Origin: Sphagnum magellanicum
Lineage: Eukaryota > Streptophyta > Sphagnopsida > Sphagnales > Sphagnaceae
Length of the DNA stretch: 64,000 nt
Assembly (NCBI GenBank): GCA_021904315.1
Contig: CM038907.1
Location: 30,883,223 to 30,947,222, forward strand
Reading direction: 5' to 3'
Shown here: in pieces, positions 48 to 54,894 of the stretch
Layout of the letters: every line of letters starts with the position of its first letter
Numbering within the stretch: the first letter of the stretch is position 1
Program-made: the position numbers and the translations under genes
The notes under the pieces: generated by a model
What the model was told of the DNA's origin: nothing
The model's database searches: none
Seen by the model: the letters and a program-made list of their open reading frames with translations, nothing else

Positions 48-3000
48 CTCATAGGAGGGAAATATTTGGGCTATGTCAAAGGGGTTGTCATCCAGCATGA
101 AACCTGAGAAAGCCAATACAAGTACTTTTGTGGTCATGGTTATCCCCACTATGTAAAAAATGCCAGTAATGTCAAGAAACTGCTCATATAGCACATGTCT
201 GGAGCTCAGCAACTACCATGTATATAAATGATTCATCTCTCGAATCCTCAGTGTGAAAATTCTGCCATGGATCTGAGATACACAGTGCATCCTACCGTAG
301 TACAGAAAAAGGTTGTCATTAGCTCGGGGGCCAAATGATGCAAAAAGTTCTTCCCCTTTTGATATCTCACGCCTTGCAATGATCTCAAGCTTGCCCCCCC
401 ATATGGGCTGTGAAATCCAGTCTGCCTGTAGTATACAAACAATGATAGACAAGATGGTTTGAAACATGCCTGATTAATAAGATAGGTACTGCAAAAACAC
501 ACAAAAATGGTTTTGGAATGTGAGCAAGGTAGGATCAGAACCTGGTAGTGATAATGATGGTTGATCATGTCCATGTAAGGCATCATCACATATGGTGCAT
601 ACTGGTCATCTGGTTTTACAGGAAGTGTGAATGCTCGACTGTGGACCATGATGGCTGCCCACTCTGTTACAGTCAAACTTTAATTGAGAATAAGGATGAA
701 AATCCTTTTGCATTCCACTCGAGCTTTTCTGAATTGCTATGCTTGTCTATGGCATTTTAATTAGTTCCGGTATGCAAGATAGAAACTAAGTCCCCTCAGC
801 TCAAATGCTCCAAAAGAGTGCAACTTTTGACTTACTGTACTCTTCATAGTCTGCCCATGCCAAATCACTCCTACTTAGTAAGGTGAAACTCTCTTTGATG
901 GACTTCCGCACTTGGACAAGCTCACGCAGAACTGGCAACCATTGGACCTCCACCAGTTCCTGTAGAATGAAGATAACAAGATCATTCCCTCCTGCATTTT
1001 AGAGCAGCATGGCAAGGCATTCTCTCTTACTCTTTTGTCTTATAAGAATATCAAAGCCCTCGTGCATCCATCATGTAAAGCTATTTGAAATGGCCACCAC
1101 ACAAGTCTCATGTGTCCAAACTTGAAAACAGAAGTGTCCAAAAATAGAGGACAGATCTGGGTATCAACTCGAGTTCAACACAGGCATTCTATCAAATGGG
1201 ATCACCATCCCTCTCCATTTGATAAATCTGTTTGATGTAACATACATGATCATCTAGGTTGATTGGAGTTGCCATCTGTGAGGGAAGAATGGCAATGTAT
1301 GGTGCCCAGCTTGAACTGTTGCCTTTGGCCCTGCAAGAATATTAAACATCTAGATCTTTAGTCTGACTGATAAGTACAATGACAGAAATGATCATCAATG
1401 TCAGAAAAGTATGGTAAACCTTACAGGATGCACATTGGGCAGAGAGAGTAGTTTTGATTGCAAGAAGAGAGGAAAGTACTTTTCTCGAAGCAGTCGGGCA
1501 GCTGCTCTGTCCCATGCATCAACTTCACCACGAACCTCCGTCTCATTATCATAAAGACCCATGTCTAACTGAGATGATGAACCAAAGAACAGTTAGTGTG
1601 AACATCCATCAAAACAATATTCGCTCAGATTTGAACCAAAAACTTGCAAACAATCAGATGCTTTCAAGAAACATGACCTACAATCTCACTTCATGTCACT
1701 AGTCTCTGGTAAGTTGGTCAGGATAGGAGTACCGGTAAGTTGCAAAGAGTTTCACCCTGCTGTATGTCTTTGAGAACCACCACTCCACGCACAGGGTCAC
1801 CATCTCCAGCTTTAATGTGGGTGATTGCCAATTTCTCCGAGATACTAAACTCAGTCTCTTCCATCCAGGTCACAAACTGTCCAGGAACCATCTCTCACTC
1901 AATAACTTGGTCCATCCTACATGCCTGATCAGCATCCCCACATAGATGTGAAATTGTTGAAACTTGAGCCTACCTCTTGAACAGATGAGTTCACATTGAC
2001 AGTGTTGCTGTCCTTGACTCTGCTGTGACTGCTATTCTGAGCATCAGTACAGGGAATTTCAGAGATGCATTGGTGAAGCAATTCTTTGCGAGAAGAGCGG
2101 TAAAGCACAGCAATGTTGTCATTGAAGCTCATCTCCTCAAGTTGCCACTGGCAGGAAGCACACCCAGACTGAGTCAGCCCTGTACCACTAAACTTCTCCC
2201 ATGAAGCTGCAGCTAGAAGGGCTTTGTCCTCTTCCAAAGAGCTTGAGAAGGAATTCAAAAGACTTTGCATGCGCCAACATACAGCTTCAAATGCCAAGGA
2301 TAGAGCAAGCTTGAATCTGGGATCAACTCCATGTATGGTCTTACAGGTGTAGGGATCTGAATGGGAAAATTCTCTGATTAGGGCATCCAGTTTCTGCTCC
2401 CAGACTGTGCCTACTTTAATATCCATATCAGCAATATAACTACTGATGTGATTTCCACTACTGACCAGTAGCTCCTTCCCATAAGAAAGAGTTGCAAAAG
2501 TGCAGATAATGCGGGAATCAATACAGCCATCAGAATTCAGAGAAAAATCTGAGACTAATTTTACATTTGACTGCTCAAGGTGTGATGTTAAGAGTTCATG
2601 AGAATCATGTGCAAGTTTCAAAGTCAAATATTTGTTGTTGTTGACGCCTCCATATTCCGTTACATACCAGTCCACCAGATCCTGCACAGAATCAGGGTCA
2701 ATGTGTTAAGGCATTTCAGGGGATATTGCCATCCATCCATATTGCAGTCCAAGGATCTTTTGACTAGAAATTGATGAACACAAAAAAAAACATACAGATT
2801 TTTAGTAAGCATACCAGTACACTTGTAAAAAGCTGAAAATGAGTTTGATTGCTTGAAATTTGACCTTCAAAACCAACAAACATCTCAATTTGTCAATGTG
2901 TCATATCATTAACTGAATGTATTGCCACAATGGGTTCTGTAAGTGCTTCTGCTGCAGTGGATCTCTAGCTGGTGTAGATCCGGTTGCATTGGAATAAGAC

Positions 3001-5372
3001 ACATTTGCATGTTTACCATGGAATAGGAAAAGGTCACTTGGATGGCTTGATTCATATGTGAGTGAAATAGGCATCTCTTGAGCAATGCCTTTGCTTGCAA
3101 TGAGATTTATGTGTCCATCCATATAAACTGCACTCACTGATCAAGAGACACAGAGAATCAGAAATGCTTTCAAAAGGGATTCCACACCTATCTAAGTTAG
3201 TCTCTAAAATATGCAGGAACTGACTGACAGATAAAATAGCATATTGGTCTAGGCCACCATCCGCAGTCAAAGGAAGAAGGTGCCATACATTTTGCATTTG
3301 GCTCAATACTTGAGCTTATGAAAGGAATGAGGAGACGAAGTGACAAATCTCCATGTGTAAATTGGCATGCTGAACTATACACAATTGCCATAGCCCAAGC
3401 TGCACAGATTTCAAGACAAAACAAAGTAGAGAATTACACAAACAAGGGACATGCACACATATGTGCAGAAGTCAATTAAGATTACCTAAGAAACTTGGCA
3501 TTTGCACAGTAGGAACAAGGTATAGGGGTGCAACTGAAATTCATGCAAACTGCCATCCATACCAAAGTCATTGAATTTAGCCCTGGATCTTTCTTCCACT
3601 GTCAGAGCCTGAAATGCCATCTCTATAAATCTCCTCATCTTCAAAACCTTGTCTACTATGGATGAATCTTGGATGTTCTTTAGTTCCTGGCAACCAGAGA
3701 ATAAAATAAGACGAGAAAACACTTACAATCATCATTGCAAGAAAGGTGATCATGTACATGGTCAAACAATACTTTGCGATGAAGCAGTCAGGAAGTATTC
3801 TGATGGTACCAGATCTGTGAAAAAGATTGGCAAGAAGACAAATTGTGGTAACACATTTATGTATGCCACCCATTCTGAATCTGAACCTTTAGATCTGTGC
3901 AATACCTGAGCCAAGTGTCAGTTAAAACCCCAACATTCAGTTTTTGGCAAAAGGATGTAAGCAAGAAACAAAACAAACCCTTCAACTTTCATTGCTGTGA
4001 ACCATGGCAGCTGAGAGCAACAAGTTGGCCCATACACAACAATACACCAGAACAACAGGTGAGTCAAGAGCACAGTTAAGAGATGAGAAGCATGCCTTTC
4101 ATGTAGAAGTCTGGAAGCAAGGCGCACTTCCCATGGAGCCCCTGACAGTGAGACTTTGTTTTCAAAAACACCTGCATCAGATAAGCACTGGTCCAGCTGC
4201 CAGGCCCCCAGCACTCTCAATCTCTAAGTTGTGTGCATGGTGATTCATTTACTGCAATCACTACCAGTCTGGCTATTGCAAAGATTTCTGATAGCATGTG
4301 TGATTGCTACAGACAAACAAAGAAACTCCCTAGAGCTATGAGAATGACTCATTACAACAAAAATCTGAAGTTTGCAGCATGAGAATCAAACACCCTCCCA
4401 CCTGCACTTCCCAAATTGTGCTGCCTTCGTTTATATCCAGTGTTGCATAGGTTGTCATCATCAGGCTGCTCTCTATCACCAGTCCCAACAGAGGAAGAAT
4501 TTGCCTTCAAAACATAGAAAAGCATGTTACCTTATCTCTTAGATCTCCATTGAAGAAAAAAAACTGCTCTTTCTGCTGGAGGTCAAGTCTGGTTCTTCTG
4601 TAGCTCAGGAAGTGCACTAAGCAGTCTCATTGTCACTAAATGAGAACACCACAAAGGGGTTGATGCAGTAAAATTCTGCTACTGAAATAAAACATGCTCA
4701 CAACTGAGAGTACCTTCAGATTTAAAGCCTGGTCTCTCCATTGGCACGACAGAAAAGTTATGGGGATGTGTTGAGTTGCTCTCTGCATTTCCATGGAGCC
4801 AGTTTACAAACTACAAAACCCAGCACATGTGTACACATAATAAGTACTTGTGATGCTCTCAACTATCAGCTCCAACTATCTGCTCAGCTTCCAACTATTT
4901 TATAACACAATTGTAGATGCAACCTGGAACTGCATGCTGTAAGGCAACTGAGAGGAGGCAAAAGAGGAACACAAAGATCCTGCAAAAAACTCATAGAAAG
5001 TTCATTCAGAGGGACTTTGCAACAAAAGAAAAAAGGCACAACAAAGTGGTAAGACCCTGTTGACAGGTCAGAGAGACAATGGAACAGGGGAAGAGTTATG
5101 CATCTGATCAAAGACCAAACCTACAGCGGATGATCAGAGACAAAAATAAAAGCATGGCTACAAAAGTGCAGACAGTGTTCAATACTAGGTGACTTCTAGA
5201 CCTTGTGTGATGCTAGGGTGGCTGCATCCACTTGAACTGGCCCTCGATCCCCAAGAGAACTTTTCAATTGTCCTAAGTTGGACCACTGTGCAGAGGTCAA
5301 TGTCCCAATGTTTTTGTTGTGGAGCTTGTCTGCTAGCCATGTTTTGGCAGACACTGTTCTGTCTGTGTACTC
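48..5372 (-). CDS. SET-domain / Rubisco-LSMT-type protein with two SET modules (partial at 3' end)
   Basis: Likely a SETD3/LSMT-class protein-lysine (or histidine) methyltransferase relative; substrate unknown. Exons, 5' to 3': 5372-5202 (probable), 4810-4714, 4472-4402, 4187-4096, 3894-3810, 3686-3563, 3399-3289, 3127-3017, a link not resolved between 3016 and 2682, 2681-1974, 1876-1733, 1568-1480, 1330-1246, 959-836, 663-542, 425-296, 103-48. All resolved junctions keep phase. Module 1 opens with FVNWLHGN (4810), then DINEGSTIW, EWVAYINVLP, WAMAIVYSSACQ and INLIASKGIA. A substrate-binding-like domain follows in 2681-1974 (SSLEEDKALL, then NDNIAVLYRSSRKELL). Module 2 opens with FVTWMEE, then VRGVVVLKDIQQGE, WAPYIAILP, MMPYMDMINHH and KLEIIARREISKGEEL. 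The second binding domain would lie beyond position 1. Exon 2681-1974 ends in phase 0 and joins 1876 in phase 0 over a 97-base intron, so one transcript is favoured over two genes. The N-terminus is unresolved. Confidence 0.75.
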
Positions 5373-6620
5373 CTGCATAATTACCACAAACACCCACTTC
5401 AAAAGAGCAAACTCACAATTGACAACTGACTGTGAAACTAGCATCTGCTGCTGCAATTCACTATGCAAACACAAAAACCTTGTGTCAGTCACGCAGAGAA
5501 AAACTTGAACAACCTCTGTATCAACAAAAGATGCAACCTCAACAATGCATTCCATTAGTGATGCATACAATAGTCCTACTAACCAAGAATCTGTGCAACA
5601 ACCCTAAACCCTAAAATCTGTACAACATGAATAAAACACAAAGTTCCAGCTAAAATGAAACAATGAAAGTAAAAAATGGAAGCCAATCAGCAGCAGCCAG
5701 TCCAAATTTCCTCATCAAAGTCTTTTCACATCAAAACAAATGACCAAAAACATAGATCATATGGAGCAACAAGAAGATGAGAAAATTCCAAAGAAACCCA
5801 TCTATCGTAAACTGATGATTAAGCAGGTAATCAATCACTGTGAAATTGTGATTAGAATTAGGGGAGCGTGATTATTCATCGTTACATCTTGATGCCAAAA
5901 TAGCCTTCATACACATTGTATTGTATGAAAGGGATTCCCTAGCACCAGGAATTTCCAACGCAAGCAAGGTTCAAGATTCATAATTCAGAGACGACAAAAA
6001 AACAAAATCCGGGAAATAAGAAAAAACAGAGCTCTTGCAGTACGTACTATGTCTTCAGATTTCTGATCAAAACAAACTGTTGGAACAAAAAAGGTGTTGA
6101 CGAAACCCTCTCACCAAAAGGAAGCCGTCCTAATCCCGATCCAGCTGCTTGAACAGAACCCTGGTGAAACAAAACCCCGGAAAAACAACAATCCGAAGGA
6201 AAGGGGGGAAAAAAAAAAGAGGAAAGAAAACAAGGTACCGGAAGGTAACAAGTGACGGAGCACGAGCAGCAACGAAACGTCGAAAGCATGAGGAGCAGGA
6301 GCACCAACAGCTGAATGAAGACAGGAGGCAAGATCATCGTCATCATCATCATCCTTGTGGCTGTTGTGATCCTCATCGCCATTGCTGGCTCTCCATCTCT
6401 TTGCTTCTTGCTTGCGTGCGATTGCGAAAATGACGATCTGAGAAACAAACGCATTCTCGCTCGATTTTGGCGAACCGGATTTGCGCGCGGTTGCTTTGCT
6501 TTTGTGGGTGGAAAGGAGGACGCAAACAACGCTGCCTCCAAAATCGGCGCGAATTTATTTTTAATTTATCCAAAATTGGGACTCTGGTGAGAAGTTTTGC
6601 CAAATTGAGAAAAACAATTT
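5373..6620 (-). other. Probable 5' exons, leader and promoter of the SET gene
   Basis: GC content rises in 6050-6560, as expected for the 5' end of the minus-strand SET gene. Splice-like signals are present, for example an exon-like piece reading LMECIVEVASFVDTE near 5535-5590 with a donor after GAG. An open frame from about 6541 to 6047 contains many Met, Leu and Ser residues and runs through likely donors, so it is more probably leader plus intron than protein. A telobox-like sequence (accctaaaccctaaaa) sits at 5601-5616. I cannot choose the true start codon. Confidence 0.4.
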
Positions 6621-6849: not shown

Positions 6850-6892
6850 CGCATTGGGATTAGGGTTTAGGGTTTTAGGGTTTAGAACCCTA
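6850..6892 (-). promoter_or_regulatory. Telobox cluster upstream of the SET gene
   Basis: Several AGGGTTTAG units lie between 6858 and 6885, that is AAACCCTAA on the minus strand. In plants this short interstitial telomere motif (telobox) is common in promoters of cell-cycle and translation genes. It lies some 250 bases upstream of the GC-rich leader of the minus-strand SET gene. It is too short and degenerate to be a telomere. Confidence 0.5.
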
Positions 6893-18810: not shown

Positions 18811-18903
18811 TCCTAAACCCTAAACCCTAAAATCGCTCCAACGGTCATGTGCCCGTTACGTACTTGATCTGTCTTTTACACAACTTGCTATCTTTTTCCT
18901 TCC

Positions 18904-19415: not shown

Positions 19416-22400
19416 ATGATGGAATCGTTCGAGGTGGATTGCGGTGGACGTCGTTGTCGAGAGAGTTTCGAGACGGATGAGTTTTACGAAAGCATTGAAG
19501 CTCCCAAGTTCTACGACTTCACGGCCCCGGAAGAGCCTATTGATCCTGAAGCCTGGTTCAATGGGAATCCTGGTACGTCTTCACACATGATAAAAGTATC
19601 ATGCCTTGTTGTTCCTCTTTCGTTTCGTCCGTCTTAGAATCCTCTTCCGGTTTCATCGGTCCCACTCTGCTGCGATGTGTCTAATGGAATGTGTGTGCAA
19701 GTCTAGCAAGAGCAGCCGTGCACACGCATATTGAAAATGCATGCCGTTGGTTGAGGACGGAGAGGGTTTAGGGTCCCTGTATACGTAGCTACAGTTGGAC
19801 ACATCTGCTTGTGGAACCAGTTAAGCGGCTTGGAGGACCTAGGATTAGCATGCTTCACTTCCTTCTTCCTCTCGCTCAAAGGTAACAACAAGGACTTAGC
19901 TCAACAAATTGTGTTGTTGTGCAGGAGGTAAGACCAAGAAAGTGACTGAGGTTTTGCGTGCAGTCCACAACCCTAAGATCCAAAAGGTACAGGCTTGTTC
20001 CCTCACAACCTATTCAGAGAGCAAACTCAAAACCAGGCCCAGGGGATGGGCACAAACTAGAGAGTTTTCTTGAATTGTTCCAATATTTTGAGCTTGAAAT
20101 TTTCCTTTAGAAACTTAGGAACAGGTCATTTTGTTGCAGAGATGGTAGATTCTTCAACCTTGAAAGCTGCAACAGTCTGGACATGCCACATTTGACAAAC
20201 TGTGACCACCTGAATTGAGCAAGAATTATCTTCATACAATGATTTACATATCATGATGATGCAGGAAGTGGACAGCAAGACCAAAGATGGACATGGCGGC
20301 AGCTCGCTGGGGAGTCTGCATCAATCCCATTGCAAAAGTCCTGTAGCTGAGAAGGCAGTCAGGTTGATATTCTACCAACAAATCGTTGTTTCTTTGTTGC
20401 TGATTCACAGTCTTAAGCAGCACAATTGTTCATACTGGTATTCCACCTTGTTTTGTGCAATTGGGGAGTATAAGGGGAGGAGGAGTGAAAATTTCTTAAT
20501 GTAAAAGACTTGGGGCTGACTCTTTGATGCAGTGCTGCGGCTGGTGGGGCAAAAAGTCATCAAGGTTCTATCTCAGTCTCTGTATCTCCTCTTCTGATGA
20601 GCAAGTCCTCAAGAAATGGGACCAATATGCATAATAGTCCCTCCAATCATCCCATCTTGGTGGAAAAATTCAGTGAACTTGCTCTCAAATCAACATCAGT
20701 GATGAAGAAGACCCGGCAACCTTCTGAGAATGATGACCCCAATCCAGTTACCAGTATGGCAAGAAATTACGCAGTTGTCACTCCATCACAGCCTGGAAAG
20801 CATTCAAGGAGACCACCACCACCAGCTGTACTCCTGGGACATTTACCAGTCAGCTGCACAACTGACATGAAGTGTGCAGAGGCAGCACTTCCTTCCTCAC
20901 AGCCTCAAACCACTGCTGTTGTTGCTGGGGGGAAGGTTGTTCTTGGAGATGGTGGAAGCAGTATTCTTGTGGATGGGAAGTTGGTTGATCAGTCCTGTGC
21001 CAAAGCTTCACCCTTGAAGAAAGAGATAACAGTTGTGAAGGCTCAGAGATCAAACCATGGTGAGGCAAGATCATCGCCAGCAGCCCTTCTCCGCTCTGCA
21101 CCTCAGGAACATAGCACTCTAGGGACAGGTGCCACTTGCAAAACGCCCATTAAGGAGCCTGCTTCTTCTAAAGTCTTGGAGGATTGCAGTGAACACAAGA
21201 AACTAACAGCAGGCAATGAGCTCACCGCATCACCTTATAGTGGTCACCATTGCCGGTCATCTCGATGTGCTGCAAATGACCCTAACTATAATTCTCCTGC
21301 CTCGATTCCAAGGAAAAAATACCTGATGGCCCGGCAGGGTACTCCTGGTTGCAGGGCTCTCTTTGGTTCTGTCAGAGCCAACCCAGAGTATCAGGAGGCT
21401 GGTAGAGTCCAAAACCATTTGCAACAGATGAAATATCCTTCAGATATCAGCATGTCCAAGGATAGGGTTCCAAATAATGACAATCTTGAAGAGGTGCTAC
21501 TGGCTGCGGCTTACCCACAGTGTGATCAGAAGGAAATGGATGTGCAAAAGACATTGGACATGGAGAAGCTGCAACTTCCAAAGGAAAGTGAACAGCCACT
21601 CTCTGAGCATATTGTGCAAGTGGAGAAGGCTGCAGCTGATCCATTGTGTGATCAGAAGGACATGGGTGTGCAAAAGACATTGGACATGCAGCAGCTGCAA
21701 GAGGAACTTCCAAAGGAATGCAAACAGCCACTCTCTGAGATTGTTGTCCAGGACTCACATGAGGGCTGCAATCCTACAGACATACATCATGCTGTAGTGC
21801 AAGAGGAAAATTCTAAGGCAAGTGTAAGGCCACTTTCTGAGCACCTTGTTGAGGACTTGCAGGAGAATAGCAATCCTGAAGACATGCAGCATGCTAAAGT
21901 GCAGGAGGGAATTTCTAAGGAAAACAAAACGCCAATCTCTGAGCACTTCATCCAGGATACCCAGGAGAGATGCAATCCTTTAGAAGTCACAACTGACTTG
22001 CACTTAGGGAATGGCCAAGAGGTACATTCAGTGAAGGATTCCAACAGTGAAGAGGGGACTTTTACAGAAGCATTAGTTATGGTGAATGATGAGGGAGCTT
22101 CAACAGGAGCACTGTTTGATGTGAGTGACAAAGACATTCCTTCAAGTTTCAAAGAACATCTCTCTATTGAGGATGTTGCTACGAGGCCTTCTTCAGAAGT
22201 AGTTGAGAATCAAAGAGTGATGATTGAAAAGGGGAAAGCAGAGCAACACCTCATGGTGTCCTTCCTCTTCCAATCAGGAAGGAAAAGGTAAATGTCCACA
22301 AAGGCTAACACTGCTTATTTGTGCTCAAAAATTGTAGCTTTGACTGTTCATGTGCTTACCTGGAAAGTCACATCTTCACAGGCTGACTTATTTCCTTGTT

Positions 22401-29984: not shown

Positions 29985-30590
29985 TATTTTGATGCCTTCT
30001 AATGTTTTCATATCTCTTTACTTTGTTATTGCACATTCTTACTCAATGGTTGGCCGAACCTCATAACTGACATTCTTCTTGAATGAGAGCTGCTTAGTTA
30101 TATCATGTATCTTTTTGCCTTTTAATATTTTCACACTTCCCTAATTCCTTCTTGCACAAAGTTTGCAAGTTCTTGGTCATTAGTTGCTTAAACGTCATAA
30201 CTCACACTCTTTTTTAACACGAGATCCCTAGAGATGTTGTGCATCTTGTTGTCTTTTAATATTGTTGTAGCTCCTGAATTCTTTCTTGCACAAAGTTTGC
30301 ACGTTCTTGGTTGATAGTTGATTGGGCCTCATACTCATGCTCTTCTTTAATGGAGCTCCCTAGTTATACCATGTATCTTATTGCCTTTTAATATTTTCAT
30401 ACTTTTGTAATTCCTTCTTGCACAAAATTTGCATGTTCTTGGTTGATAATTGATTGAGCCTCATAACTCACATTCTTTTTGAATGTGAGCTCCCTAGTTA
30501 TATCATGTATCTTGTAGCCTTTTAATATTTTCATACTTTCGTAATGCCTTCTTGCATGAAGTTTGCATGTTCTATATTGGCAATTAAAAA
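29985..30590. repeat. Minisatellite, about 133-base period, five units
   Basis: The marker cttcttgcacaaa-like word occurs at about 30029 (poor copy), 30151, 30285, 30417 and 30551, giving spacings of 132-134 bases between the last four. Each unit also carries ccttttaatattttcatac and cctcataactcac words. A partial copy (ggttgaacctcataactcat) lies outside the array near 31430. A minus-strand open frame across 30397-30714 is a by-product of the repeats. Confidence 0.85.
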
Positions 30591-35068: not shown

Positions 35069-35583
35069 CTAAACCTTAAACCCTAAAGAAACCTGGGTCT
35101 GTGGACTACTTACTTACCTTGACATCATAAAATTTGATGTAGAACCTTGAAGGTTGCACTGACAGTTTAGACTGTAGAATCTCTGCAAGTGCTGCACTCA
35201 GTTGCTTGTTTTTGTCTGGAGTCAAACCTCCGATGGAAACAAGCTCACCATATGCAGTAGGTTCTTCACTTCCTCCAAATGACATCGGTACGCCTCCTTT
35301 GAGTATTACCAACACATACTGCAAAGCAAAGAAAGAGGAAGGAACTCGTAGCTTACATACACTGCCCCCCAATGAAAAAACAAAAACAAAAACCAGGAGA
35401 CAAGAGATAATATATACAAACATCAAAAAATAACAGGTTGAAACAACCAGACAAGAGCCAAAAGGAGTTTACAGATTCCGGCTTGCCGAGGATCCTGGCC
35501 ACGGTCTTGCTTGCATCCTTGAGAATATCCGAAGTCACAACACTGTCCACGGGAACGTTGGTCTGCAGATTCACAGTCGGCAT
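34492..35583 (-). CDS. MDL: MIF / D-dopachrome tautomerase family protein
   Basis: Plant MIF/D-DT-like (MDL) proteins share the macrophage migration inhibitory factor fold, a trimer with tautomerase activity in many members. Exons on the minus strand are 35583-35473, 35318-35118 and 34527-34492, with phase 0 at both junctions and donors GTAAAC and GTAAGT. The product is 115 aa, the usual length of the family. Proline follows the initiator Met (MPTV), the position of the catalytic N-terminal proline. Further family blocks are YVLVILKGGVPMSFGGSEEP, AYGELVSIGGL, RFYIKFYDVK and the C-terminal FGWNGKTF. Intron 2 (590 bases) holds a GAAA microsatellite. The gene is divergent from MHF2 and shares its promoter. 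Confidence 0.92.
35037..35068. repeat. GAAA tetranucleotide microsatellite
   Basis: Eight AAAG units in a row, inside intron 2 of the MIF gene and just 50 bases from the exon 2 donor. Plus-strand purine here is pyrimidine on the transcribed sense strand. Confidence 0.95.
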
Positions 35584-35686: not shown

Positions 35687-35865
35687 CTTGCGATGTGCGA
35701 GGGCTTAACCTAGTAGCTCCGAGCGAAGAAGAAGGTGAAGCAAAAAGATTAGGGCTCTAGGGTTTAGGGTTTAAAGAGCTTGAACAACTGCTTTGCTTTT
35801 TCCTGTAGTGTTGTTGCCCTCTGCTTTCAAGCGAACCGATCAAGATTTGTGGGTTGCTTCATGGA
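35687..35865. promoter_or_regulatory. Duplicated bidirectional promoter segment, copy A
   Basis: This copy matches 35893-36057 in order: gcgatgtg/gcgacgtg, tagctccgag, gaaggtgaagca, telobox-like agggtttaggg, gagcttga, gctttcaa and gtgggttgcttcatgga. Offset is about 195 bases. It holds a telobox and a preserved ATG (35861) in the same context as the MHF2 start. It lies between the MIF start (35583) and the MHF2 start and probably carries the MIF promoter. Confidence 0.85.
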
Positions 35866-39072: not shown

Positions 39073-40122
39073 CTAGTTGTCAAGATGCCAATATGGATGC
39101 ACACTGGGAGCGCCACCATTAGCATTTGTGCCTGGTGTAAAAGTTGTGCCACCATTAGCTGCAGTTGTGTGTACTGCCACACGGTTTGCTGCAAGGTCCA
39201 GCAATGTGGGAACAGCTACACGAAGCTGCTGAGGAGGAGGAGGAGGTGATGACTCTAGCATGGGTAAGTTTGGGGACTCGTGCTGGAGGGTGGTAAGCCA
39301 TCGCTGCGCTGATCCGAAAGCCAACTCGCTGCTGCTCACCGGAGTTCTCATTACCGGCTGTAGTTCAAACGCGGGGTCTGCGATGTAATACTCCAGGTGC
39401 TCCACTGCAGTGACTTGACAACAAGGTTCTCGGCCACCTCGGCCTTGATCATGCGATCGGATCAGTACTCCCGAAGGTCGCCGACGAAGGCGGATCGAAG
39501 ACGGAGGTGCAGTTGGGTTGATGCTGCCCAAGTTGTCCACGGATACGTCTACAATTGCCCAGAAACCAGGCTGCTGCTGCTTGCAGTAGCGGAGGAAGTG
39601 AAGCCGGCGAGCCGCCGTGGGTACATTATGAGCTGATGGGGAAACCGCTTCTGGAATCATCTCTGCCATCATGATCAGCAAGGCACCATGACGGTTTCCA
39701 GGAACACCAGCCTCCAGAATAGCAAGAACTTCAGCTCGTGAAACCATGCAAGCAAAAGTGTCCATCCACGTACATGGGTTCATGAAGCTCTCGACTATAC
39801 GAGGGCCATCCGCCTCCACCAGAATTCTGTCTCGTGTAGCCTCGGTCTTCATACCCCGGCGAGTTCGTCGAATACCAGCCAATGTGCCTTCTGCAAACTG
39901 ACGCAGGTACTGAGCCAGGTTGAGCTGTTCCATCCGTTGTTGCGGGACGTCCTGGTTGTCTTCTCCTGCATGATCATCATCAGGAGGAGCAGGTAGGAAC
40001 CAGAGAGGACTCTGGGCTTGAGATACATGCATGAACTCTGCCATGGCTCTTTCAGCCAGCTCCACCACCTGTTCTTCGTAGGCTGCAGTGATCCGAGCAG
40101 GGCGAATAGAAACTGAAGGCAT
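39073..40122 (-). CDS. START-domain protein related to HD-ZIP IV factors, no homeodomain
   Basis: One coding exon of 349 aa. Residues 21-285 match the START (lipid-binding-like) domain of plant HD-ZIP IV transcription factors: ELAERAMAEF (21), SPLWF (38), LVEADGPRIVESFMNPCTWM (101-120), FLRYCKQQQPGFWAIVDVS (176-194), RPSGVLI, VEHLEY and AFGSAQRWLTTLQ (268-280). Residues 303-324 recall the conserved segment just after START. HD-ZIP IV proteins are usually about 700-800 aa, with an N-terminal homeodomain and leucine zipper and a C-terminal HD-SAD half; both are missing. No homeodomain frame is present upstream to 41300. Upstream of the ATG is a good acceptor (TTGTAG, AG at 40129-40128), so the frame begins within exon 2 or later. 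It may act as a lipid- or protein-binding regulator, but this is inference. Confidence 0.85.
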   Translation of the reverse strand: MPSVSIRPARITAAYEEQVVELAERAMAEFMHVSQAQSPLWFLPAPPDDDHAGEDNQDVPQQRMEQLNLAQYLRQFAEGTLAGIRRTRRGMKTEATRDRILVEADGPRIVESFMNPCTWMDTFACMVSRAEVLAILEAGVPGNRHGALLIMMAEMIPEAVSPSAHNVPTAARRLHFLRYCKQQQPGFWAIVDVSVDNLGSINPTAPPSSIRLRRRPSGVLIRSHDQGRGGREPCCQVTAVEHLEYYIADPAFELQPVMRTPVSSSELAFGSAQRWLTTLQHESPNLPMLESSPPPPPQQLRVAVPTLLDLAANRVAVHTTAANGGTTFTPGTNANGGAPSVHPYWHLDN

Positions 40123-41215
40123 ATTTGCTACAACAATGTAACGACAACACAATGACCACTTCAACACCACAATGTTAGAACTTAGAAGCCCACCCAATTG
40201 CAGCAGCTGATGAAAGAACTTGCACAAGAAAGACCTGTTTCTTGAACCATCTTGTGAGCATCAAACAGGAGACTCATTAGCAACAAAGCCTAATATGAAG
40301 GAAAGCTTTAAACTCTGAACATACATGCATGATCTATAACCACACTGATCAGTACACGGCATGCATATAGATGTAGCTAGCTAGCTGTGACACGACATTA
40401 AGAATATAGCAAACGTGACATGCAGTGCACACACGAAAGTAAACTACAATCTACAACAGTACTAATACTATGACCTGCTAGAAGGCATCTACTAACAAAG
40501 AGTAGTACTCTGATGATTATAAGGAAAACTAGAATATGACTGTAAGGATTCGGATTATAAGCAAAAGGATGATCGATACATCAGTCATTTGACTAGATTT
40601 CGCGATTTGATCAAAGTCGTGAGGTTTAATGATCTTGGCAGCACTAGAATGCATGTGGGTAGCAGAAGAAGTTGAAGAGAACTTACTTCAGCAGCAAGTT
40701 AAAGAACCAAAGATCAGAATCGCGCGAAGAAGAAAGCGAGTATCTTAGTCGACCAAGTTAAAGAAGCAAGAGAATGAAGGTATTGTGCGACTTACCTAGA
40801 AAGTTTGAAGAACTGAGAGAATGGCGCTGAATATTCGCTTGCTGTTGCAAGCGCTGCTGCAATGAAGAGCTTCCGGACTAAAATGGAAGGTGAGAAGCTA
40901 GGCGCAATTAATGTTATTGCAGCTAGCTTCCTGTTGAGGTCGCCGGAGATGCAGGAAGAATTAGGTATAGAGAGAGATGCGAAGAAGTAGAGACGAGGAA
41001 GGAGATGGGGGAAATCGTCAAAGCAAGCGAGCGCGGCAGCTTGCTACGCCATGGCAGCTTCTGGTGGTGAGAGAGAGAGAGTCCCCTGAGACAAGGCGCC
41101 GTGCGTACGCACCAAGTGGGACTGATCGCGACTGGTCCTACGCGCGGCGACGCTTGGGCGGCAAGTGCTTGGGCGGGTGTCGATGGATGGATGGATGAAT
41201 GGATGGATGGGGACG
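40123..41215 (-). promoter_or_regulatory. Leader exons, leader intron and promoter of the START-domain gene
   Basis: On the minus strand a strong donor (CTAG|GTAAGT) lies at 40796/40795 and another (GTAAGT) at about 40684. The acceptor before the coding exon is at 40129-40128. This fits a leader with one or two introns. The region 40840-41200 is GC-rich with GA and GGAT runs, as expected near a transcription start. No coding exon with a homeodomain was found. Confidence 0.6.

Positions 41216-54857: not shown

Positions 54858-54894
<37 letters not shown>

Follow-up and report, generated by a model that had tools for sequence, protein, structure and literature searches.

A putative class VII SET gene with two modules, the first of them apparently degenerate, in Sphagnum magellanicum

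A stretch of 64,000 nucleotides (nt) of Sphagnum magellanicum DNA (contig CM038907.1, positions 30,883,223 to 30,947,222; hereafter the window, numbered from its first letter) carries two SET modules of LSMT/SETD type, arranged head to tail between 4810 and 48 of the minus strand. That these modules are homologous, have a common intron anatomy, and can be joined in a single frame is well supported by their sequence. Module 1 (4810-1974) consists of nine exons with 489 codons and no stop, in an exon chain that was selected to be stop-free, and module 2 (1876-48) of seven exons with 250 codons, interrupted by the window edge. Together with two candidate upstream exons, the 16 module exons form one stop-free frame of 844 codons (Table 1). 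We interpret this arrangement as a genuine doubled SETD-type gene, probably expressed, with a dead-looking first module.

Homology and shared introns of the two modules

The two modules were compared using our own spliced protein-to-DNA aligner, which was blind to the introns of the other module. The module 2 protein aligned to positions 5000-1950 with a score of 121.8. Shuffled queries averaged 36.4 (standard deviation 4.0, n=100) and peaked at 50, and 76 further combinations of chunk and strand within the window reached 40 at most. At high intron cost, this alignment spanned residues 50-158 of the 250 in module 2. In the opposite direction, module 1 aligned to the module 2 region with a score of 146.1 (shuffles: mean 35.8, standard deviation 4.8, maximum 50, n=100). 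Three introns were placed at identical codons and phases in both searches, namely 77/2, 106/0, and 147/1 in module 2, corresponding to 89/2, 118/0, and 159/1 in module 1. Loose intron costs cause the aligner to insert spurious short exons, and inference was limited to these three core introns. A BLASTP comparison of the two proteins likewise returned an E-value of 5e-19, with 26% identity across 202 columns, using an earlier module 1 model that starts at YATLDINEG, lacks both the first exon and the 50-nt exon described below, and begins the 708-nt exon at 2647.

An earlier reading of this locus from its letters alone (the original prediction) had proposed that intron positions and phases are common to the two modules and that matching exons have identical lengths. 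The first proposal holds for the three core introns and more loosely beyond them: phases agree at seven of the eight module 2 boundaries in our model, four of these seven having been chosen partly by homology, while one boundary differs (188/0 in module 2 vs 196/1 in module 1) and module 1 has an extra intron at 32/1. The second applies to two of the seven exon pairs, i.e., the 85/85 pair (3894-3810 and 1330-1246) and the 124/124 pair (3686-3563 and 959-836), both of which are real. The other five pairs differ in length (module 2 vs module 1: 144 vs 97+71, 89 vs 101, 122 vs 111, 130 vs 120, and 56 vs 50 nt). Both modules do open, as proposed, with TTTGT directly behind an acceptor; the AG is in phase 0, the sequence continues as TTTGT(A/G)A, and the encoded residues are FVNW in module 1 and FVTW in module 2.

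The module 1 gene model required one repair. The original prediction stepped directly from 3017 to 2681, a join that loses the frame because a phase-1 end meets a phase-0 start, and had missed a 50-nt exon at 2864-2815 that restores it. Among the 18 phase-compatible exons listed (at least 15 nt long, between 2960 and 2735), this one was the best, with a splice score of 8.2 compared to 1.4 for the next, and it falls opposite the 56-nt exon 103-48 of module 2 with identical phases in and out. All three of its frames are open, and their codon scores (3.6, 2.7, and 3.0) are not separable. Three other joins were in phase and were rejected as weak: to 2681 from donor 3003 (-1.3) or from the GC donor 3009 (-0.9), and from donor 3017 to acceptor 2647 (-3.5). 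The least secure part of the model is the start of module 1 (4714-4196), for which 2426 phase-consistent chains were obtained within the set score limits. There, the homologous chain has a splice score of -3.8, the best chain including DINEGSTIWE scores 6.4, and the best overall scores 16.3; DINEGSTIWE is absent from the best 12 of the 2426 chains by splice score. We tentatively prefer the homology-based chain for this region, a choice that is uncertain. Separately, the intron 4095-3895 of module 1 apparently uses a GC donor (AAAG/GCATGC), which the spliced aligner picked unprompted.

Predicted activities of the two modules

Module 2 matches the Pfam SET family (PF00856) with 34.6 bits, above the cut-off of 22.4, and the full 844-residue model matches it at 9.4e-12. 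Two stretches of this model reach E<=1, and the better one (624-814), the one listed, lies in module 2. The best solved relative of module 2 is the actin-histidine N-methyltransferase SETD3 (PDB 6v62, 3smt; E 2.5e-13), a protein with one SET domain only, followed by pea Rubisco LSMT (E 2.4e-7 for 1mlv and 2.3e-7 for 2h21), SETD6 (E 1.6e-6), and PAP7/pTAC14 (PDB 8qma; E 3.8e-5), a SET protein belonging to the plastid RNA polymerase complex. The latter is a single-module protein, with a chain of 483 residues. Overall, SETD3, LSMT, SETD6, and pTAC14 account for 16 of the 17 solved-protein matches to module 2 at E<=1, the other being a cytochrome oxidase subunit (0.38). In LSMT, the tyrosine of the YGF motif is catalytic and the NH motif is part of the active site. 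Module 2 has both: its DMINHH aligns with DMCNHT of SETD3, and its LYYGF aligns with IHSGF of SETD3, which has no such tyrosine. The active site of module 2 is thus not SETD3-like, since YYGF and SFG stand where SETD3 has HSGF and FYG. From these motifs, we consider module 2 rather likely to be catalytically active. It exits the window at position 1, ahead of any binding domain.

In module 1, the NH motif is absent, the NH of module 2 standing opposite SS in the BLASTP alignment or EP in the MAFFT alignment, both within FISSSIEPNA. The usual pattern, which we take to be NHSC.PN, also puts SS of module 1 at the NH position. The column of the catalytic tyrosine holds a histidine (LFHG-Q; MAFFT), and in the uncertain exon 4472-4402, LMMTTYATL is found opposite PVRGVVVLK of module 2, so that the cofactor-loop glycine may be lost too, provided that this exon is correct. 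Because the NH motif and the catalytic tyrosine are replaced, module 1 would be unable to use the cofactor, and it is very probably catalytically inactive. This catalytic loss appears to be a new point, which the original prediction did not raise. The best solved match of module 1, in a truncated model, is pea Rubisco LSMT (E 0.0021). For this group, comprising pea Rubisco LSMT (PDB 1mlv, 2h21) together with class VII SETD/RBCMT proteins of plants, a profile of the two modules gave an E-value of 1.7e-10.

The binding-like domain of module 1 had no PDB match at E<=10, and exon 2681-1974 folded alone gave an uninformative model (predicted local distance difference test 33.5, predicted template modelling score 0.20). 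No match was found in NCBIfam at E<=10 or in Rfam at gathering scores. A search for relatives gave no match in viral contigs, and seven pattern matches in genome contigs of which none was confirmed.

One gene or two, and the origin of the doubling

As originally predicted, a 97-nt intron joins 1974 to 1876 in frame, so that the 708-nt exon 2681-1974 runs phase 0 to phase 0 into module 2. This exon is the nearest one upstream with a phase-0 end, its donor at 1974 ranks third among the 16 donors of the model with a score of 3.2, and the acceptor before FVTW occupies the same place and phase as the acceptor before FVNW. This gene anatomy makes it probable that both modules are joined in one mRNA. 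An analysis of the polyadenylation motif AATAAA on the sense strand was not significant (0 observed, 1.06 expected), and a scan of the junction for bacterial promoters and terminators has no bearing on plant DNA.

Several observations pull the other way. On the domain side, module 1 alone lies under the Pfam SET cut-off (16.3 vs 22.4 bits, truncated model), with no SET match listed at E<=10 when the 489-residue module 1 model was searched against Pfam. The substrate-binding-like domain that had been proposed at 2681-1974 persists as a weak likeness to Rubis-subs-bind (PF09273; E=0.061), its 14.4 bits falling under the cut-off of 21.6. In module 2, a phenylalanine (SFG) replaces the tyrosine that SETD3 has in FYG, and activity is therefore not certain. 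On the side of the gene model, the module 1 acceptors at 4472 (-3.5) and 4196 (-5.3) are weak, as is the score of the acceptor at 1877 (-1.4), and the alignment of module 1 to module 2 errs at later boundaries even at high intron cost, where donor 620 was taken for 542 and donor 296 was overrun to 252, which makes the aligner unreliable in the diverged second half. In addition, the candidate exon 5372-5202 ends in phase 0, and its direct splicing to 1876 would leave out module 1 without loss of frame, yielding an isoform with a single SET domain. Finally, when a longer core is compared, the score of module 2 is higher for SETD3 (179) than for module 1 (158).

Alternatively, the locus could hold two separate tandem genes: upstream, a divergent SETD-like gene that terminates with the stop 1931-1929, and downstream, an active gene starting at the ATG 1891. 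Reading exon 9 past 1974 does give 14 further codons and then this stop, and ATGGTTCCTGGACAG lies in frame ahead of TTTGTG. However, only 37 nt are left for a gene border between the stop, which is in frame when the intron is retained, and the in-frame ATG; the original prediction had seen no room here for a terminator and promoter. The well-scoring donor at 1974 also speaks against separate genes, and the acceptor at 1877, matched in place and phase in module 1, would stand idle in a gene starting at 1891. We thus regard two genes as unlikely, and extend this judgement to the softer form in which a single gene produces transcripts that skip module 1 through the possible phase-0 splice from 5372-5202 to 1876.

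If both modules do belong to one gene, their similarity argues for an internal tandem duplication as the likely origin. Module 1 is nearest to module 2 (z 25.2), ahead of a pea LSMT stretch (16.2) and SETD3 (13.5), and over the first ~100 core residues the two modules match each other with z 28.4 compared to 9.5-15.2 for either of them vs SETD3. This part of the original prediction is plausible in view of the preference of module 1, and is not proven, because module 2 has its higher score with SETD3. That score, together with the one boundary differing in phase and the extra intron in module 1, could reflect a fused gene made of two different old SETD paralogues set side by side. The closeness of the modules over the first ~100 core residues runs counter to this origin, as do the three identical introns, though these are possibly family-wide, and we find the paralogue scenario improbable. 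It is very improbable that module 1 is a decaying pseudogene copy beside module 2 as the sole working gene, an idea to which the missing catalytic motifs, the Pfam score under cut-off, some weak splice sites, and a lower third-position GC (0.40 vs 0.49 in module 2) would lend themselves, but which is at odds with 489 codons across nine exons remaining stop-free (in a chain selected to be so) despite divergence to ~26% identity, with none of 20000 first-order Markov sequences keeping a frame of 708 nt free of stops, and with the chosen frame having the top codon score in 9/9 module 1 exons (and 6/7 in module 2, the exception being 1876-1733), a score that penalizes stops and so partly restates openness, and that reaches just 1.1 for the 708-nt exon.

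We return to a doubled gene with a pseudo-SET module fused to an enzyme through duplication of an exon block, an explanation that we hold, as a whole, to be reasonably likely. One plant nuclear gene would encode a class VII SET protein (SETD/LSMT type) that has two modules and exceeds 840 residues. The duplicated block would extend from the phase-0 intron before FVxW through the phase-0 intron after the substrate-binding exon, and the second block would have become spliced onto the first after tandem duplication. Module 1 would then have turned into a non-catalytic pseudo-SET, as its replaced NH motif and tyrosine suggest, and, with the binding-like domain, would form a built-in recruiting or regulating arm. 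The retention of a non-catalytic module beside a catalytic one suggests such an arm, and we give the recruiting role of module 1 slightly less than an even chance. The methyltransferase activity, dependent on S-adenosylmethionine, would reside in module 2 and target a non-histone substrate, more likely at lysine than at histidine. More speculatively, and with considerable doubt, there may be a conserved plant lineage with a single-chain pseudo-heterodimer, in which a dead LSMT-type SET and its binding arm covalently control or aim the live one, possibly with secretory or membrane entry via a hydrophobic N-terminus, and with a dead module that splicing can drop in frame. If true, this pseudo-heterodimer would represent an architecture new to the SETD/LSMT family. 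A fusion of a dead and a live module would show that pseudo-SET modules can be retained in a binding or regulatory role, and would allow the role of the substrate-binding arm to be tested directly. It would also correct a gene model that automatic annotation might readily split in two.

Compared to described proteins, the two-module gene appears to be an unusual form within a known family of plant proteins, and the earlier expectation that a double protein would be unusual agrees with the available text of two plant SET surveys (PMC5725981, PMC5013442). In cotton, RBCMT members are described as having SET with Rubis-subs-bind, SET alone, or TPR with SET, in the portion of the report available (PMC5013442). 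Across 506 SET proteins from 16 Archaeplastida, the accessible part of the survey names a two-SET protein only for the Chlamydomonas class IV-C Su(var), which differs from the present gene in belonging to another SET class and in carrying SAD_SRA and PreSET, with an LSMT-type binding domain unmentioned there (PMC5725981). A degenerate SET domain is not itself new in this class, because, according to the available passages of a Brassica napus survey, the SET domain is truncated in some SETD members of Arabidopsis (PMC8879272). The accessible sections of a paper on Arabidopsis plastid SET enzymes place PAP7/pTAC14, a class VII SET protein whose substrate is unknown, in a complex, list several enzymes without a known substrate or awaiting characterization, and leave a double protein unmentioned (PMC3991674). 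We found no double SETD/LSMT protein in the literature searched, of which these partial texts form a part, and this is weak evidence of absence given the narrow coverage and few terms.

Exon map and other features of the window

Table 1. Exons and linker intron of the proposed two-module gene, in window coordinates
Feature	Position	Strand	Description
Candidate first coding exon	6239..6382	-	MAMRITTATRMMMM...ILPPVFIQLLVLLLLML..., open frame, donor 6239/6238, phase 0 out, in-frame join to 5372-5202
Candidate second exon	5202..5372	-	EYTDRTVSAKTW...ATLASHK, phase 0 in and out
Module 1 exon 1	4714..4810	-	FVNWLHGN..., phase 0 in, 1 out; position corresponds to FVTWM of module 2
Module 1 exon 2	4402..4472	-	ESSLMMTTYATLDINEGSTIWEVQ, weak acceptor, least certain exon; DINEGSTIWEVQLD aligned to DIQQGETLCNLPLD
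Module 1 exon 3	4096..4196	-	Weak acceptor (rival start 4171), GC donor; 3' boundary from unsupervised spliced alignment
Module 1 exon 4	3810..3894	-	85 nt, twin of 1330-1246
Module 1 exon 5	3563..3686	-	124 nt, twin of 959-836
Module 1 exon 6	3289..3399	-	FISSSIEPNA opposite YMDMINHHY of module 2; 3' half missed by aligner at high intron cost
Module 1 exon 7	3017..3136	-	Ends in ...LFLFHG, opposite LFLYYG of module 2
Module 1 exon 8	2815..2864	-	50 nt, enters in phase 1 and leaves in phase 0, twin of 103-48
Module 1 exon 9	1974..2681	-	708 nt, substrate-binding-like domain and hydrophilic linker, phase 0 in and out
Linker intron	1877..1973	-	97 nt, GTAGG...GACAG, phase 0; if retained, stop at 1931-1929
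Module 2 exon 1	1733..1876	-	FVTWM...CNLP, 144 nt
Module 2 exon 2	1480..1568	-	89 nt
Module 2 exon 3	1246..1330	-	85 nt
Module 2 exon 4	836..959	-	124 nt
Module 2 exon 5	542..663	-	Contains DMINHH
Module 2 exon 6	296..425	-	SFGPRANDNLFLYYG
Module 2 exon 7	48..103	-	FMLDDNPFDIAQIFPSYE, 56 nt; donor close to window edge, gene runs on outside

The candidate first exon 6239-6382 encodes a strongly hydrophobic stretch (ILPPVFIQLLVLLLLML), with a top Kyte-Doolittle mean of 2.67 over 15 residues, which one would not expect in a SET enzyme of the stroma or cytosol. An in-frame ATG at 5378 offers a rival start, and exon 5372-5202 had no Pfam match in a search made jointly with another, unused candidate exon. 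Near this end of the gene, three telobox motifs (AAACCCTA) occur at 6861-6883, some 480 nt ahead of the candidate start codon, and the first intron holds another at 5606-5613.

Teloboxes, which often mark translation-related plant genes, occur 15 times in the window vs 2.7 expected, including further pairs at 18815-18829 and 35758-35772. The latter pair is upstream of an open reading frame (ORF) of the MIF family at 35106-35468 (minus strand; PF01187, 9.9e-14). Another minus-strand ORF, at 39073-40260, contains a START domain (PF01852, 3.8e-15) and presumably resembles a class IV HD-Zip protein. This ORF, the spliced genes, and the teloboxes give the window a plant-like character. On the plus strand, a 587-codon open frame at 20528-22291 had no Pfam family above cut-off and includes an imperfect tandem repeat with a period of 102 nt at 21727-21979. 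The window also contains a 134-nt tandem array at 30059-30573 and an unbroken run of 36 G at 54858-54893.

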